From positions 1-31,736 of IMG/VR virus record IMGVR_UViG_3300042351_000104: DNA of 31,736 nt; one strand, 5' to 3'. Both the position numbers and the translations under genes were made by a program. Shown one piece after another: positions 4,777 through 24,244 of the stretch (position 1 is the stretch's first letter; each line of letters begins with the position of its first letter). Under the pieces are notes generated by a model. The model searched no databases and was not told the DNA's origin. It was given only the letters and a program-made list of their open reading frames with translations. The stretch comes from a virus.

Positions 4777-5348
4777 GTGAAATACTAAGAATTGATACTA
4801 GTGCTGGTGTAACAAAAGCAACAGACACTATTGAAGACCTGCCTTTATATAATGATAATCATCCTATGTTAAAGGCTGTTATTCCAGAATATAGAATACA
4901 GTTGCCTAACCCATTGATGACCAAATTGGTTAAAAGGTTGAAACAAACAAAACTAAAATATGGCGGCATTGGCCTTTCTGCAAACCAATGTGGTGTTATG
5001 GAAAGAGTATTCGTTATTGGGTATGAAGAAACTAATATGGTTTGTATCAACCCTAAAATCATTGATGCTTCGGCAGACTTGATTAAAGACAATGAAGGTT
5101 GCCTCTCTTTCCCTGGTTTATATGTTAAGATATCAAGGCCTAGTTGGTTGGAAGTAGAGTACGTTACTGAAAATGGCGAACTAATACGACAAAGAATTGA
5201 AGGTCTGACTGCAAGATGTTTTGCACATGAATTGGATCATATGAATGGTACTAAGTTTACCGAACATGTTGGTCCAGTTGCACTCAGACTGGCTAAAGAT
5301 AAACAAGAAAAACGCATTAAGAAACATGTGCGAAATAGAAAGAAATAA
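4773..5348 (+). CDS. def: Peptide deformylase
   Basis: This 191-residue protein has all three deformylase motifs: GIGLSANQ (65-72), EGCLS (108-112) and HELDH (152-156). The Cys of the second motif and both His of the third bind the catalytic metal, and the Glu is the general base. The enzyme removes the formyl group from nascent proteins. Phage-borne deformylases are known from aquatic T4-like phages, where they are thought to support rapid synthesis of viral or photosystem proteins. Here the gene sits inside the gp55-47-46 operon, with a 4-nt overlap upstream and TAATG coupling downstream. All catalytic residues are intact. Confidence 0.95.
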   Translation: MSEILRIDTSAGVTKATDTIEDLPLYNDNHPMLKAVIPEYRIQLPNPLMTKLVKRLKQTKLKYGGIGLSANQCGVMERVFVIGYEETNMVCINPKIIDASADLIKDNEGCLSFPGLYVKISRPSWLEVEYVTENGELIRQRIEGLTARCFAHELDHMNGTKFTEHVGPVALRLAKDKQEKRIKKHVRNRKK

Positions 5349-6625
5349 TGGCATACGGATTTGACCCAAAAGATGATGTAGATACGCAATGGACAAAATG
5401 GCATGCAGACTTTAAAGAGCCTGCTGTTTTGACTGATGAGACTTTACGTGAGAAAATCATTAGTGACCTTACATTTGTATCAAAGATGGATGTCAAAGAA
5501 TATACATTATACCAAAAATGGTGTGAAGTGCAAGACAGATATCCTACAATGACTGTTAATGATTTGTGGGAAGGTGAGAAGGTTGTATTACAGAGTGATG
5601 TTCAACGTGATGCTATTGATGACATTAAGAACAACTTTTGGATTCCAGAAACACTTGAAGATTATCTGAAACTTGAACCTGAAATGATTTACACAAACAA
5701 AGGTGAGAACTTGCCTGAATTGTGGAATTGTATTCGCACCTTTTCTTCTACAATGAAGAACAACTCTAACATTGGCCGCAATCTAAACTTCATCATTCGT
5801 GATAAGGTAACAAAGAAGTATCTTGGTGTTATTTGTATTTCATCAGACTTTCTTGATTTGACACCAAGAGATAATCACATTGGTTGGCCAAGAGAACTTA
5901 AAACACAAGGCGGTATGATTAACCATACTGCAATTGGTTCTACAATTGTTCCATTGCAGCCACTTGGTTTTAATTATGTTGGTGGTAAATTACTGGCACT
6001 TCTATGTCTTGCCGATCCTGTACAAGAATTGTGGAAGAAATTATATGGCGACACATTAGTTTCTGTAACTACAACTTCATTGTATGGTAGAACTAAGGCT
6101 GATGGACTTTCTCAGTATGATGGTCTAGACCACTGGCAGAAAATGGGATTTACGGCAGGTTCGGTATCATTTGAACCAGAAAAAGAAACACGATATGATA
6201 TTCGTGATTGGTTGAAAACAAAACATACACGTAAATACTTTGAATGGTATGTTGCAAAGAAGCCAAGCGGACAACCACATAAGCGTGACCATAAGAATCG
6301 TTCACTTCAGTTTGTTTATTCTAAATTGAATATTCCTAAAGAGTTGATTCGTACAGACCATGCTCGAGGCATTTATTGGTCGCCACTATACGATAACTCT
6401 ATTGATTACCTTAATAAGAAAATTGGTGATGATGACTTGGTTAAATCATTTGATACAAGCGTTGAAGCCTTAGTTGATATTTGGAGAACTAAACATGCCA
6501 AACCACGTATCAAACAATTGGCCAAAAAAGGCCGTAACAATAACGAAACCTTGTTCTATGACGACCTCTGTTATCTAACATGGGAACAGGCAAAAGAGAA
6601 GTATCTTTGCCAAGTTGGTCGTTAA
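5348..6625 (+). CDS. DUF4338 / DruA-like protein, copy 1
   Basis: This 425-residue protein has a core at about 125-260 that reads LGVICISSDFLDLTPRD, then HIGW, then NYVGGKLLALLC, then TTTSLYG. This is the pattern I associate with DUF4338, the domain of DruA in the Druantia defence system: a strand with a small residue pair, R-D-x-x-IGW, a conserved hydrophobic stretch, and a [ST]-T-S-x-[YF]-G element. A second copy is encoded at 23129. The molecular activity is not known to me. The gene is coupled to def by TAATG and ends the gp55 operon just before a strong promoter. The C-terminal 150 residues are basic and may bind nucleic acid (inference). Confidence 0.72.
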   Translation: MAYGFDPKDDVDTQWTKWHADFKEPAVLTDETLREKIISDLTFVSKMDVKEYTLYQKWCEVQDRYPTMTVNDLWEGEKVVLQSDVQRDAIDDIKNNFWIPETLEDYLKLEPEMIYTNKGENLPELWNCIRTFSSTMKNNSNIGRNLNFIIRDKVTKKYLGVICISSDFLDLTPRDNHIGWPRELKTQGGMINHTAIGSTIVPLQPLGFNYVGGKLLALLCLADPVQELWKKLYGDTLVSVTTTSLYGRTKADGLSQYDGLDHWQKMGFTAGSVSFEPEKETRYDIRDWLKTKHTRKYFEWYVAKKPSGQPHKRDHKNRSLQFVYSKLNIPKELIRTDHARGIYWSPLYDNSIDYLNKKIGDDDLVKSFDTSVEALVDIWRTKHAKPRIKQLAKKGRNNNETLFYDDLCYLTWEQAKEKYLCQVGR

Positions 6626-6630
6626 AACGC

Positions 6631-6659
6631 TTGACAAACAGCCTATATAATTATATAAT
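6631..6659 (+). promoter_or_regulatory. Consensus sigma-70-type promoter for the cloverleaf-like RNA
   Basis: TTGACA at 6631-6636 and TATAAT at 6654-6659 are both perfect matches, with a 17-bp spacer. Transcription would start near 6666-6667, only a few bases before the folded RNA at 6670. There is no open reading frame directly behind it until 6838, so this promoter seems to serve the RNA. Confidence 0.85.
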
Positions 6660-6669
6660 AGACACAAAT

Positions 6670-6732
6670 GCGGAGAGTCCGAGACAGCCCGTCCCAACGG
6701 GCAGACAGGTTTAACTCCTGTTATCCGCTCCA
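6670..6732 (+). ncRNA. Cloverleaf-like small RNA with a T-arm and 3' CCA (tRNA-like)
   Basis: The 63 bases fold into a four-way cloverleaf. The closing stem is 6670-6676 with 6722-6728 (six of seven pairs, one G-A mismatch). A tiny arm GTC-CGA-GAC lies at 6677-6685. A 6-bp GC-rich hairpin with a CCCA loop lies at 6687-6702. A T-arm-like hairpin, ACAGG-TTTAACT-CCTGT, lies at 6705-6721. The fold is followed by T and then CCA at 6730-6732, as in a mature tRNA-Gly end. It is 13 nt shorter than a normal tRNA: the D-arm is rudimentary, and the middle arm cannot form a 7-nt anticodon loop. It is probably not a decoding tRNA. It may be a degenerate tRNA-Gly or a tRNA-like regulatory or decoy RNA. The promoter directly upstream supports real transcription. 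Confidence 0.6.
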
Positions 6733-6758
6733 TTCCTAAGTCCCATGCGACTTCCCAA

Positions 6759-6778
6759 CTGTTGTTTTTACGCAACAG
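6759..6778 (+). promoter_or_regulatory. Hairpin/inverted repeat just upstream of the 6783 promoter
   Basis: CTGTTG (6759-6764) and CAACAG (6773-6778) form a 6-bp stem around an 8-base T-rich loop, ending 4 bp before the -35 box. There is no U-tract after it, so it is a poor terminator. The same arrangement occurs at 9143-9161 before the CobS promoter, which suggests an operator or a shared promoter module rather than chance. Confidence 0.5.
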
Positions 6779-6782
6779 GCTC

Positions 6783-6810
6783 TTGACAAATCCTCCAGTT
6801 TTGATATAAT
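6783..6810 (+). promoter_or_regulatory. Consensus promoter for the metallopeptidase/VWA gene
   Basis: TTGACA at 6783-6788, a 16-bp spacer, and TATAAT at 6805-6810 preceded by TGA (extended -10). The start would be near 6817, giving a leader of about 20 nt that contains AAGG (6828-6831), six bases before the ATG at 6838. Confidence 0.82.
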
Positions 6811-6837: not shown

Positions 6838-9141
6838 ATGACAGCATTTACAGTAGAACAAAAATCTCAGCTTGCCAAGTTGATGGCAACTGAGAACCTT
6901 ACCATTCAACATTCAAAAATCCATACTGCCAAATTTGACCCAACTAAACGGATTCTTTATCTTCCTATGTGGAAAGATATGTCAAGTTTCATGTATGATT
7001 TGCTTGGCGGCCATGAGGTCGGTCATGCTCTTTATACTCCTGCGGATGGTTGGCATGATGTTGTTACCGATAAAAACAGAGGTAAGAATTATAAAGCTTT
7101 CCTTAATGTGATTGAAGATGCTCGCATTGAGAAAAAAGTTATTCGTAAATATCCAGGCCTTAAATCATCATTCCGTAAAGCATATGCTGAATTAAGTGAC
7201 CGTGATTTCTTTGGCATCCAACATCGTGACATTAACCATATGTCATTCATTGACCGATTGAATATCTATACCAAGAGCCAATACAGCGAAAACATTAGAT
7301 TTTCTGTTGAAGAAATGCAAATGATTGGTGAAGTTCAAATGCTTGAAACATGGAATGATGTGCTTCGGGTAACTGAAAAGATTTATGGTTATTGTAAGAA
7401 TGAACAATTTGAATTATCAATTGGTGATGATTTTGAATATGACGCTGAAGGCAATCCCTTAGATGAAGATGATACCAATTCCGATTATGATTATGATACT
7501 GAATTGGATAATGGTGAATCTGGCGACAGCGAAGATTCGGATGAAACCTCAGATGAAACTACCGATGAAGAAACCGATGGTAACTCTGATGGTGAAGGTG
7601 ACGATTCCGATTCTGATGATGACGGCAACAATGTGAATCGTGATAAAGATTCGCAAATGTCCAATTTCGATTCAGAAGATTTTGATCCAGAATGTGTAAC
7701 TGACGATAACTACCGCAAAAACGAAGTGACATTGCTTGATGAAAAATGCAAGCCTTATGTGTACGCTAATATGCCTACACCTATTTTGTCTAAAATTATC
7801 ACACCTGCAAAACGGGTTCAAGAGTTGTTGACATTAGATTTTGCAAATCAGGTTAAAGATGGTTATATAACAGATGAAAGAATCAATGGTTTTGTACAAG
7901 AATTTCGTAATAGAAATGAACGTTACATTGCATTGCTTGCCAAAGAGTTTGAAATGCGTAAGGCTGCCAAATCATTCAGTAAGGCAAAGCAATCGGATAC
8001 TGGTGATGTTGATGTTAACAAACTGGCTTCATACCGTTTTGATGACAATATCTTCCGTAAAATCATGCAAGTGCCAAAAGGCAAATCACATGGTTTGATT
8101 CTGTTGCTTGATTATTCTGGTTCTATGTCAGATAACATGGCAGGTTCTATTGAACAAATCTTGGTTCTTTCCATGTTCTGCCGTAAAGTAAACATTCCAT
8201 TCCATGTTTATGCATTCAGTAATGATTCTTCCACATGGTCAATTGATAATCCCAAGACTACTGCTGTACCACTTAGCGTTCTTGGAAATCCTATGGAAGT
8301 TCGTCAATGTTTTATGTACCAATCTGGTGAATTAAAATTTGAAGCTATTTCATTGCGTGAATATTTAAATTCTAAAATGACAAATGCTGAATTTACCAAG
8401 GCCTTGCGTAACATGGTATTGTTGAAAAAGTCCTATGAAGGCGGTCGTTATGCTCGTGTTGTGCAAAGACCACATTCTGAAAGACTTTCAAATACTCCTT
8501 TGACAGAAGCTTTGGTTGCAACACAAGCAATTATGAAAAACTTTAAACGTAGCAACAATTTGGATATTACAAACTTGGTAATTATCCATGACGGTGATGC
8601 TGACTCCACTAATTGTGTGGCAAATGATGAAGGTGGTTACAATTGGTTTCATCCATTGTATGAGAATGTTATCCTTCAAGATAACAAATTAAAATACCAG
8701 AAGCTAGTTAAGTCTAACAACTTAAGCAATGAAATGTTTGTTTCGGTTGCTGAGTGGTTTACCGCTACAACCAACTCTAAGATTTTTGGTTTCTTTATTG
8801 TTCCTCCTCATCGTTCAAAGGGCATCATTAGACATTACTACCATAATGAAAATAGATTACCTCTATACACTAAGCGTTCTGATGCTAACATAGATGCTGA
8901 GTTGATTAAACAACTGAAGCGTAAATTGGATACTCAGAAGTTTTTACATTCATTCAATCCTGGTTATGATTCGTTCTTCCTAATTTCTGGTGGAAATGAT
9001 TTAATGACCAATGATGGTGAAATTGAGGTTGATGGTAAACTTACAGCATCTAAGCTCAAGAATGCTTTTATGAAGTTCAATAAAGGCAAACAGATTAACC
9101 GAGTGTTAGTCTCCAAGTTCATTCAAGGCATTGCTGCCTGA
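6838..9141 (+). CDS. CobT-like protein: zinc metallopeptidase-like N-terminus, acidic linker, VWA domain
   Basis: This 767-residue protein has HEVGH at 59-63, a zinc-peptidase-like HExxH, followed by a conserved helix NVIEDARIEKKV that may supply a third ligand. Residues about 195-280 are a strongly acidic low-complexity linker rich in Asp, Glu and Ser. A von Willebrand A domain follows, with its metal site DYSGSMS at 425-431. The layout matches CobT-like VWA proteins, which pair with MoxR-type AAA ATPases such as the CobS-like gene downstream. In aquatic T4-like phages this pair is conserved but its substrate is unknown. Cobalt chelation is unlikely without CobN; remodelling or proteolysis of a host complex is a reasonable inference. 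It has its own promoter. Confidence 0.85.
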   Translation: MTAFTVEQKSQLAKLMATENLTIQHSKIHTAKFDPTKRILYLPMWKDMSSFMYDLLGGHEVGHALYTPADGWHDVVTDKNRGKNYKAFLNVIEDARIEKKVIRKYPGLKSSFRKAYAELSDRDFFGIQHRDINHMSFIDRLNIYTKSQYSENIRFSVEEMQMIGEVQMLETWNDVLRVTEKIYGYCKNEQFELSIGDDFEYDAEGNPLDEDDTNSDYDYDTELDNGESGDSEDSDETSDETTDEETDGNSDGEGDDSDSDDDGNNVNRDKDSQMSNFDSEDFDPECVTDDNYRKNEVTLLDEKCKPYVYANMPTPILSKIITPAKRVQELLTLDFANQVKDGYITDERINGFVQEFRNRNERYIALLAKEFEMRKAAKSFSKAKQSDTGDVDVNKLASYRFDDNIFRKIMQVPKGKSHGLILLLDYSGSMSDNMAGSIEQILVLSMFCRKVNIPFHVYAFSNDSSTWSIDNPKTTAVPLSVLGNPMEVRQCFMYQSGELKFEAISLREYLNSKMTNAEFTKALRNMVLLKKSYEGGRYARVVQRPHSERLSNTPLTEALVATQAIMKNFKRSNNLDITNLVIIHDGDADSTNCVANDEGGYNWFHPLYENVILQDNKLKYQKLVKSNNLSNEMFVSVAEWFTATTNSKIFGFFIVPPHRSKGIIRHYYHNENRLPLYTKRSDANIDAELIKQLKRKLDTQKFLHSFNPGYDSFFLISGGNDLMTNDGEIEVDGKLTASKLKNAFMKFNKGKQINRVLVSKFIQGIAA

Positions 9142-21778: not shown

Positions 21779-23132
21779 GGACTTTACCCGTAAAGTTTTG
21801 CCATTCATCAAGTCGGATTACTTTGCCGACAATACAGAGAAGGTAGTATTCAAAGAAATCTTTGAGTTTGTAAACAAATACAAAAATCTACCGACTCATG
21901 AATCTCTCATCATTAATTTCACCGAGAGTAAAAAACTAACTGAACCTGAAGTAAGACAATCAATTGAACTTCTTAAAGAATTACATTCAAGTAAAGAAGA
22001 AAAGGTTGAGAGTAAATGGTTAATTGAGCAAACTGAGAAGTTCTGCCAAGATAAAGCCATCTACAATGCCATCATGGAATCAGTATCAATCCTTGATGAC
22101 AAACACGGAGATAAACCTAAGGGTGAGATTCCAAAACTACTGAGTGATGCTCTTGGTGTTTCTTTTGACCAACACATTGGCCATGATTACATGGCAGATT
22201 ATGATTCTCGTTTTGATTTCTATCACAAGGTAGAATCTCGTATCAAGTTTGACCTTGATATCTTCAATAAGATTACAAAAGGCGGACTGCCGACCAAGAC
22301 CTTGAACATTGCACTTGCAGGTACTGGTGTTGGTAAATCATTGTTCATGTGTCACGTTGCCGCTGGTTGCTTGAATCAAGGTCATAATGTTTTGTACATT
22401 ACAATGGAAATGGCCGAAGAACGTATTGCAGAACGTATCGATGCTAATTTGCTAAATATTGATTTGAATGAACTTCACACAATCAGTAAAGAAGACTATG
22501 AACGTAAATTCAAGGTGTTACAAAACAAGGCTCATGGTAAATTGATTATCAAAGAATATCCAACTGCTAGTGCTTCATCACTACATTTCAGAGCATTGTT
22601 AAGTGAATTGCATCTGAAGAAGAACTTTGTTCCACATATTATCTTTATTGATTATTTGAACATTTGTGCATCTTCACGTATCAAGGCAGGTGGTTCTGTT
22701 AACTCTTATACTTACATCAAGTCTATCGCTGAAGAACTGCGTGGTTTGGCTGTTGAACACAATGTGCCAATTGTTTCTGCAACACAAACAACTCGTAGTG
22801 GTTTCAGCAATTCGGATCCAGGCCTTGAAGATACTTCAGAATCATTTGGTTTGCCTGCAACTGCCGACTTTATGTTTGCATTGGTGACTAATGAAGAATT
22901 GCAACAATTAAACCAAATCTTGGTGAAACAATTGAAGAATCGATACTCTGACCCTAACAACTTCAAACGATTCGTTGTTGGTGTTGATAGAGCAAAGATG
23001 CGGCTGTATGATGCAGAAGATTCAGCACAGGCAGATATTGTTGATGCAGGTCAAGTTGAAGATAAACCTTTGAATACATTTGGAAACCGTGAGAAGAAAT
23101 TCAGTAAGAATTTTGGTGGACTTAAAGTATGA
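21732..23132 (+). CDS. 41: Replicative DNA helicase (T4 gp41-like, DnaB family)
   Basis: I place the start at ATG 21732 (MNRLEQTILKNLIYNEDF), because the first 30 bases of the longer frame, from GTG 21702, have no support. The product has 466 residues (T4 gp41 is 475). The N-terminal domain (1-150) is helical. The RecA-like motor has Walker A AGTGVGKS (Lys202), ITMEMAEERIAERI, Walker B HIIFIDYLN and the SATQTTRSG motif. It forms the hexamer that unwinds DNA at the fork with primase gp61. It overlaps the preceding gene by 47 nt and the next by 4 nt. Confidence 0.94.
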   Translation: MNRLEQTILKNLIYNEDFTRKVLPFIKSDYFADNTEKVVFKEIFEFVNKYKNLPTHESLIINFTESKKLTEPEVRQSIELLKELHSSKEEKVESKWLIEQTEKFCQDKAIYNAIMESVSILDDKHGDKPKGEIPKLLSDALGVSFDQHIGHDYMADYDSRFDFYHKVESRIKFDLDIFNKITKGGLPTKTLNIALAGTGVGKSLFMCHVAAGCLNQGHNVLYITMEMAEERIAERIDANLLNIDLNELHTISKEDYERKFKVLQNKAHGKLIIKEYPTASASSLHFRALLSELHLKKNFVPHIIFIDYLNICASSRIKAGGSVNSYTYIKSIAEELRGLAVEHNVPIVSATQTTRSGFSNSDPGLEDTSESFGLPATADFMFALVTNEELQQLNQILVKQLKNRYSDPNNFKRFVVGVDRAKMRLYDAEDSAQADIVDAGQVEDKPLNTFGNREKKFSKNFGGLKV

Positions 23133-24244
23133 CATTAACTAAAGAACAAGCCGTACATTGTGCAAATGTATTCTCCAACTACTTTGATAAGTTTGGTCGT
23201 ATTGATGAATACATGAGAGAACAGAAACTAAATTCAATGGCCGAAAGACCATTTACTTTGCCTGGCATGGGACCAGAAGAAGATTTGTTTTCTGATTTCA
23301 CTATGTCACCTGCTGATATGGAATTTGAAATCATGGAGTTACCACAAGATAGGTGGGACATTTATCTCAATATGATTTCAAGTCACTCAAACATGACCAG
23401 TATTCCTGGTCGGTGTTTAAGATTGGCAATTTGGGAAAAGAAATCACAGAAGTGGGTTGGTTTTATTCGTCTTGGTTCTCCTGTTATCAATTGTAAACCA
23501 CGCAACGAAATGCTTGGCCAAGTATTCACGCAACATGAAGGTGGTGCTCAATTGTTCAATCAATGTGCCGCTATGGGTTTTGTGATTGTACCTGCACAAC
23601 CATTTGGTTTCAATTATCTCGGTGGTAAATTACTTGCAGCCATTTGTACAACACATGAAGTACGTAGAATGTTGGATGAAAAGTATAAGATGACCACCTG
23701 CTTGTTTGAAACAACCAGTTTGTATGGTTCTTCAAAGGCAGTATCACAGTATGATGGTATGAAACCTCTGATTCGTTTCAAAGGTTTAACTGATAGTGAT
23801 TTCTTGCCGATGTTACATGGTAAAACTTATAGTGACCTCAAAGAATACATTGAGAATATCATTGGTGAACCACTTGCACCAGAAGGTGCTTCTTCACGCA
23901 AGTTGAAGATTTCTAATGCAATGGTGTCTATGATTAAGATTGGCCTCAAAGGCACACCAGAGGCTACTAAGTTTGCACAGACGATTGAGAATGCCAAGAA
24001 TCTGAATGAACAGAAACGTTACTTCATTTCAGACTATGGTTTTAAGAACATGGTTGATTTTGTAAATGGAAAGACTGACAAGTTAATTCCAGGTGAGAAC
24101 TATGAGAAACATAATCTGGCCAATATTACAGAGTGGTGGCGTAAGAAGGCTATCAATCGATTTGAGACCTTGAAGACAGAAGGTCGTATTCGTACAGAAC
24201 AAGAAGTCTGGACTGGTGATAAAGTGCTTGACATAATTCGGTAA
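23129..24244 (+). CDS. DUF4338 / DruA-like protein, copy 2
   Basis: This 371-residue protein is a paralogue of the one at 5348. Shared elements in the same order are a GR-x-L-x-x-x-I stretch, KxVGxIxxxS, P-x-GFNY-x-GGKLLA-x-[LI]C, and TTSLYG followed by SQYDG. In this copy the R-D-x-x-IGW element is altered (PRNEMLGQVF), so the copies have diverged at a site that is usually conserved in DUF4338. It starts inside the gp41 stop codon (ATGA overlap), which ties it to the helicase. The activity is unknown; association with recombination or replication is inferred from location of both copies. Confidence 0.72.
   Translation: MTLTKEQAVHCANVFSNYFDKFGRIDEYMREQKLNSMAERPFTLPGMGPEEDLFSDFTMSPADMEFEIMELPQDRWDIYLNMISSHSNMTSIPGRCLRLAIWEKKSQKWVGFIRLGSPVINCKPRNEMLGQVFTQHEGGAQLFNQCAAMGFVIVPAQPFGFNYLGGKLLAAICTTHEVRRMLDEKYKMTTCLFETTSLYGSSKAVSQYDGMKPLIRFKGLTDSDFLPMLHGKTYSDLKEYIENIIGEPLAPEGASSRKLKISNAMVSMIKIGLKGTPEATKFAQTIENAKNLNEQKRYFISDYGFKNMVDFVNGKTDKLIPGENYEKHNLANITEWWRKKAINRFETLKTEGRIRTEQEVWTGDKVLDIIR

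Follow-up and report, generated by a model that had tools for sequence, protein, structure and literature searches.

The DruA family is known from anti-phage defence. Its DUF4338 domain has been described as a GNAT domain (PMC10853773), and enzymes of the GNAT fold are reported in PMC12945691 to take amino acids from aminoacyl-tRNA. The Mom protein of phage Mu modifies adenine with a glycine-like group, for which PMC7824862 gives an acyl-CoA such as glycyl-CoA as the proposed donor. In Gram-positive bacteria, according to PMC6097841, non-proteinogenic tRNA-Gly species serve the FemXAB enzymes in cell wall synthesis.

The DNA analysed here, called the window, is the virus record IMGVR_UViG_3300042351_000104 of IMG/VR, positions 1 to 31,736, in its full length of 31,736 nucleotides. 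It encodes a 63-nt cloverleaf RNA that resembles tRNA-Gly, with a gene of the DruA family on its upstream side; freshwater T4-like phages carry this RNA-DruA pair. The RNA is best read as a dedicated, non-decoding tRNA-Gly that would donate glycine to DruA, the most likely target being phage DNA; we assign to this reading a probability of roughly 0.55. The titles and opening parts of abstracts listed in literature searches yielded neither this virus-encoded 63-nt RNA nor anything tying DruA/DUF4338 to tRNA or Mom to glycyl-tRNA. A dedicated glycyl-donor tRNA is already known from Gram-positive cell walls; the virus-encoded, DruA-tied version of 63 nt is new to the literature so found.

The RNA and its promoter

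The features of the locus are collected in Table 1. The promoter agrees with the consensus at 12 of 12 positions and has a spacer of 17 nt. The RNA downstream of it begins with the acceptor strand GCGGAGA, continues with the three arms GTC-CGA-GAC, GCCCGT-CCCA-ACGGGC and ACAGG-TTTAACT-CCTGT, and ends with TATCCGC, T and CCA. In place of the 7-nt anticodon loop the middle arm has a loop of 4 nt on a 6-bp stem or one of 6 nt on a 5-bp stem; the acceptor stem, U73 and the CCA are present. Six of the seven acceptor pairs are formed, pair 6-54 being a G.A mismatch. The predicted fold has a minimum free energy of -25.8 kcal/mol (z = -3.55), which none of 200 shuffles equalled. ARAGORN called no tRNA in the window, and Rfam at E<=1 gave no match at the RNA locus, its four matches elsewhere in the window each falling under the gathering score.

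Table 1. Features of the RNA locus in the window
Feature	Position	Strand	Evidence
Proposed user of the charged RNA: 425-aa protein of the DruA/DUF4338 family with a GNAT fold	5348..6625	+	Pfam, PADLOC, models
Sigma-70-type promoter of the RNA, TTGACA-17-TATAAT	6631..6659	+	12/12 consensus; conserved in relatives' upstreams
Non-decoding tRNA-Gly-like RNA, encoded CCA, 63 nt	6670..6732	+	Fold, covariation, covariance model, viral-contig pattern
Acceptor stem 5' strand, partner strand 6722-6728	6670..6676	+	Sequence, covariation alignment
D-arm remnant GTC-CGA-GAC, 3 bp	6677..6685	+	All three pairs invariant in 42 63-mers
Middle hairpin, loop holding C-C	6687..6702	+	Covariation alignment, loop survey
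T-arm, loop TTTAACT	6705..6721	+	Covariation alignment
Discriminator U73 + CCA	6729..6732	+	Sequence, relatives' conservation

Two more hairpins lie 3' of the RNA (6738-6778), the second of which, of the TGTTG..CAACA type, recurs between the RNA and the downstream peptidase gene in many relatives. Promoter matches of 12/12 also stand at 6783, 9167 and 10425, each with a TG preceding the -10 hexamer, unlike the promoter of the RNA, which has no such TG. At 1003-1401 the window encodes a YunG-like protein (PF24585, E 2.4e-8) adjoining a sugar epimerase gene.

Conservation and covariation

Relatives were drawn from viral contigs in three ways, by the downstream peptidase, by the upstream gene and by the RNA itself. 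Near-identical regions were merged before the counts of promoters, regions downstream of DruA, peptidase-anchored regions and deformylase genes, and before the tree was labelled. The covariation alignment (A4) comprises 42 distinct ungapped 63-mers, with eight longer mini forms excluded from the pair count. Paired cells make up 92% of it as against 81.6% in shuffles, 11 of the 21 pairs are changed on both sides, and the covariation score is 0.296 compared with 0.099 (sd 0.009) for the shuffles, none of 500 of which scored that high; these shuffle counts are not probabilities, because the sequences are related. Slid controls scored at most 0.084. The three pairs of the D-arm do not vary and hence give no covariation signal. 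Pair 6-54 is nonstandard in 38 of the 42 sequences and pair 18-33 in 17. Relatives supplied 70 distinct upstream regions, of which 34 contain a promoter with at least 11 of 12 consensus positions, as against none of 350 mononucleotide shuffles. A search of cellular genome contigs with the pattern of the mini form gave no match.

An earlier note on this DNA, made from the window alone, had described a perfect TTGACA-17-TATAAT promoter and a cloverleaf resembling a shrunken tRNA-Gly that lacks a normal anticodon loop, both within 6631-6732. The coordinates are right for both elements, and the description agrees with the fold, with the covariation among the 42 relatives and with the ARAGORN and Rfam searches, which were among the checks it had named. 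It had also looked to covariation in homologues, which is present, and to the state of the RNA in close relatives, where it is neither absent nor scrambled. The fold, the conserved promoter and the covariation support its view that the element is not a plainly decaying gene and appears to have been kept by selection.

Descent from tRNA-Gly

In one relative (L231) the place of the RNA is occupied by an intact tRNA-Gly(UCC), which the covariance model R1 detects with an E of 0.0022. An intact gene at the same site shows the RNA to descend from tRNA-Gly. Other relatives have longer or differently shaped RNAs with different D-arms and T-loops, and in some of them the RNAs form tandem pairs. Tandem aberrant glycine RNAs, two differing types in each case, were seen in L037, L038, L041, L043, L087, L155, L156, L216 and L438.

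The pairs G1-C72, C2-G71 and G3-C70, U73 and the CCA are constant across the aberrant RNAs, with position 2 of L008 as the single exception, and the acceptor part of the glycine identity set is invariant in the 42 63-mers save one sequence. That set, as tabulated for bacteria in PMC9976931 (Table 1), consists of U73, G1-C72, C2-G71, G3-C70, C35 and C36; U73 is given in PMC6097841 as idiosyncratic to bacterial tRNA-Gly (231,855 of 232,109). Seventy of 73 distinct aberrant RNAs, 50 of them mini forms and 23 of them longer ones picked by the analyst, hold a C-C within the predicted middle loop, and this C-C would correspond to C35-C36. None of the 73 has a TTCRA T-loop. A GG in the D-stretch, by a crude check, is present in one of the 50 mini and four of the 23 longer forms and absent from the other 49 and 19. 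The predicted middle loops are mostly of 4-5 nt, with extra pairs closing them. Because extra pairs close the anticodon loop and the usual D- and T-loops are gone, the RNA appears unfit for normal use by the ribosome.

The upstream gene

DruA (PF14236) is the sole Pfam family matched by the upstream protein, with an E of 2.5e-17 and 63.4 bits at a cut-off of 27. The PADLOC model of DruA, against which three window proteins were run, matches it at E 3.7e-17, and PF14236 is matched at E<=1 by 25 of 25 relatives of the protein. AlphaFold models reach a pLDDT of 80 and a pTM of 0.81 at full length, and 86 and 0.75 for the core. In VIA-align these models match GNAT structures. The first row for both is 8bv8, identified as phage Mu Mom by its PDB title, with Z 9.5 (182 aligned, 4.5 A) and Z 11.2 (181 aligned, 4.3 A), other GNATs being tied within 1 Z. 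Plain Foldseek of the model against the PDB gave weak matches, the best with an E of 0.04. FemX and FemA structures were absent among the VIA-align rows listed for either model, and a viral FemAB appeared in one weak row (E 0.12). On sequence grounds, homology of DruA to Mom was rejected, hhalign probabilities against a 7-sequence Mom alignment being 0.4% and 0.3%.

A second DruA-family gene lies at 23129-24244 of the window (PF14236, E 1.9e-9; phrog_19197, E 9e-132) and is of the type found between the clamp-loader genes of cyanophages (L242-L246). The window has the D-arm core GTCCGAGAC at 6677 only, with none beside this second gene.

Linkage of the RNA to DruA

The RNA pattern marks 119 stretches in viral contigs, 118 of which were examined as RNA-led loci and contain 43 distinct RNAs. 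After exclusion of four loci with less than 150 nt upstream, DruA is found upstream of the RNA in 114 of 114; the RNA begins at most 100 nt from the DruA stop codon in 103 of these and 546-765 nt from it in 11. Taken in the opposite direction, from DruA to the RNA, the 88 distinct downstream regions include 79 in which the RNA is adjacent by the filter and one (L225) which the filter missed. One of 80 candidates counted, that of L212, was false at that place, the real RNA lying past an inserted ORF. The RNA is farther downstream of DruA in L123, L134, L212, L235 and L227, the region of L228 stops after 190 nt with no RNA within it, and two pelagiphages have no RNA directly after DruA. An insertion parts druA from the RNA in L123, L134, L212 and L235; to the eye it looks like an antisense ORF containing homing-endonuclease-like repeats.

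Joint presence and absence were followed with the peptidase as the anchor. In 36 distinct regions the RNA occurs in 23 of 23 with DruA and 0 of 13 without it, five DruA-minus loci with loose candidates without the CGCTCCA end being scored as RNA-negative. The peptidase tree has 79 rows: 66 have both DruA and the RNA, 10 have neither, three have DruA only and none has the RNA only. The three are the two pelagiphages and L008, and the latter is labelled RNA-minus because the search pattern demands GCG. At least 4-5 changes of the label for joint presence are needed on this tree, the deep part of which is unsure (long branches). The peptidase is downstream in 100 of 100 loci; the gene order is stable, and part of the RNA-DruA linkage could therefore be due to shared ancestry.

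A decaying tRNA-Gly remnant carried along by this stable gene order would accord with the descent from tRNA-Gly. It is disfavoured by the covariation and by the joint absence with DruA, and it fits poorly with the invariant identity elements, the conserved promoter and the aberrant copies found elsewhere in the genome, so that its probability is very small.

The DruA/GNAT gene directly upstream is the strongest association of the RNA. The earlier note had described the RNA correctly and left this partner unnamed; the roles that it offered, titration of host tRNA enzymes or a regulatory RNA, are unsupported as stated. More broadly, the RNA could act as a decoy, drawing off host defences or toxins directed at tRNA, such as anticodon nucleases and toxins that acetylate glycyl-tRNA, or it could titrate host tRNA enzymes. 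Its encoded CCA and the tRNA-Gly features kept outside the anticodon loop would suit that function, but a decoy predicts neither the tie to DruA nor the altered anticodon arm of most forms, and we consider it improbable. We give about equally little credence to the RNA serving DruA in some other manner, as substrate or as cofactor, in which the RNA or its glycine would be acylated, as by TacT, or the RNA would be a structural or regulatory partner. The same linkage evidence agrees with this, and PMC9976931 presents TacT as a GNAT acting on Gly-tRNA-Gly via U73 and G71. A pure binding partner, however, has no need of a kept G1-C72, C2-G71, G3-C70, U73, CCA and loop C-C amid a variable rest.

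Occurrence elsewhere in the genome

Among the first 11 long DruA contigs the RNA adjoins DruA in all 11, ten of the RNAs being aberrant and one ordinary. Three contigs (G001, G002 and G006) have separate ordinary tRNA-Gly genes besides the DruA-adjacent RNA, and glycine decoding is covered in them for this reason. Fourteen contigs have DruA without a nearby RNA. Seven of them carry an aberrant glycine RNA elsewhere, often in a tRNA array beside an ordinary tRNA-Gly, three (one of 170 kb) have only ordinary tRNA-Gly, and four, which are fragments of 29-65 kb, have none. It follows that the RNA need not adjoin DruA, and that in at least some phages, in which a separate ordinary tRNA-Gly accompanies the aberrant form, it is dispensable for decoding.

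That the RNA is an odd tRNA which continues to decode glycine codons, possibly with a ribosome altered by the phage, might be argued from the CCC- or UCC-like bases which persist in the middle loop and from the ribosomal protein S21 encoded near the locus in the two pelagiphages. The small size of most loops (4-5 nt), their closure by extra pairs and the ordinary tRNA-Gly in several of the same contigs make this reading highly improbable.

The two pelagiphages, Mosig and HTVC008M, are available in culture; each has a DruA gene together with an aberrant tRNA-Gly, the latter assigned in both by pattern and eye. In HTVC008M, tabulated with no tRNAs in PMC7029224, it lies 3.9 kb downstream of DruA; in Mosig it is on the minus strand at 7779-7852, inside an annotated hypothetical ORF. 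The model R1 misses the Mosig RNA and scores that of HTVC008M at an E of only 0.27. ARAGORN missed the Mosig RNA and those in six of six contigs given to it, out of the seven with aberrant copies elsewhere; in all relatives with aberrant forms submitted to it, its one call was the HTVC008M RNA, as tRNA-Gly with the anticodon ACC. Finders of tRNA can overlook such RNAs, as these two phages illustrate, and more may be hidden. The annotation of the hypothetical protein Mosig_000011 (MT647606.1, L239; 7774-7869) overlies this aberrant tRNA-Gly and probably does not represent a real gene.

At distant DruA loci in MAG contigs no glycine RNA was found nearby in 15 of 17. In the two exceptions the nearby RNA is an aberrant form (L413, 3598-3666) and an ordinary tRNA-Gly(UCC) (L415, 2635-2708). 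In six complete cyanophage genomes with DruA-like genes, nothing that matched the pattern GCG-N-CGCTCCA resembled an aberrant glycine RNA; one match was an ordinary-looking tRNA-Gly, in S-SCSM2R. The link to the RNA therefore concerns the subfamily of the window's upstream gene. As a control, 13 DruA-minus records (absence judged by protein search; 11 are contigs of 8-84 kb) had pattern matches in two, none of which is tRNA-like by eye.

Neighbouring genes

The genes near DruA are mainly those of replication and recombination. Of 97 distinct loci, 78 have a peptide deformylase gene immediately upstream of druA, as do, partly by position, the two pelagiphages. It occurs also in DruA-minus loci, and so is not tied to DruA. 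The deformylase suggests an alternative with a protein target, in which DruA would add the RNA-borne glycine to deformylase-exposed N-termini for tagging or degradation. The Leu/Phe-tRNA protein transferases, which are GNAT-fold enzymes, would be a model for such N-terminal addition. The presence of the deformylase in DruA-minus loci and the character of the other neighbours argue against a protein target, which we regard as unlikely.

In the DruA-minus loci L019 and L033 two genes fill the slot before the peptidase, one for a small GNAT and one for a protein resembling N6/N4 DNA methyltransferases (PF01555, E 3.6e-6 and 6.8e-6). The opposite side of the slot shows the deformylase in L033. A third DruA-minus locus, L071, has unrelated genes there. 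The pairing of GNAT and methyltransferase weakly hints at a DNA-modification role of the slot.

Proposed pathway

According to the preferred reading, that of a glycine donor for DruA, the RNA would be transcribed from its own promoter, and the host GlyRS would most likely load it with glycine through the bacterial identity elements and the encoded CCA. It would not normally serve the ribosome. Instead, DruA, a GNAT-fold protein whose gene is adjacent or lies at another site of that genome, would use the glycyl-RNA as its aminoacyl donor and transfer the glycine to its target, by analogy with phage Mu Mom most likely a base of the phage DNA. Several points count against this: the DruA contigs with only ordinary tRNA-Gly or none, the distant DruA loci in MAG contigs that mostly lack a nearby glycine RNA, the stable gene order, the lack of sequence similarity between DruA and Mom, and the poor R1 scores in the two pelagiphages. 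Further, the usual donor of GNAT proteins is acyl-CoA, and GlyRS might reject an RNA of 63 nt whose anticodon arm is altered.

The complete pathway of DNA hypermodification, in which glycine reaches DNA from a virus-encoded, ribosome-blind tRNA via a GNAT of the DruA family, is put forward as a tentative proposal. Glycyl-tRNA may likewise be the donor of Mom. N6-glycyl adenine and N6-carbamoylmethyl adenine are isomers, and the former could rearrange into the latter. If the proposal is true, it explains why a virus keeps a tRNA that is unable to decode, the DruA family gains a testable substrate in glycyl-tRNA, and the donation of groups for genome modification becomes a further use of aminoacyl-tRNA. 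The acyl donor of Mom-like DNA modification also becomes directly testable.

Comparison with known systems

The window protein is like DruA of Druantia (PF14236, DUF4338) in its Pfam and PADLOC matches, but its gene is located in the replication region of a T4-like phage and has a companion RNA. Phage Mu Mom (PF25680) shares the GNAT fold predicted for DruA and ranks first in both structural comparisons of the models, level with other GNATs to within 1 Z; the two belong to separate Pfam families, PF25680 and PF14236, and sequence similarity between them was undetected. We know of no companion RNA for Mom.

The FemXAB system resembles the locus in its glycine tRNA for non-ribosomal transfer, with U73 kept (PMC6097841), and in the user of that tRNA, which PMC12945691 describes as a GNAT-fold transferase. 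The FemXAB tRNA-Gly is cellular, whereas the window RNA is virus-encoded, has 63 nt with a remodelled D-arm, T-loop and anticodon arm, and is tied to DruA, to which it would pass glycine after charging. A tRNA-Gly of the FemXAB type is near full length. Toxins of the TacT type are likewise GNATs acting on charged tRNA-Gly, of which they read U73 and G71 (PMC9976931). There the tRNA is the target of the toxin, whereas in the window a dedicated RNA is encoded together with the GNAT gene.
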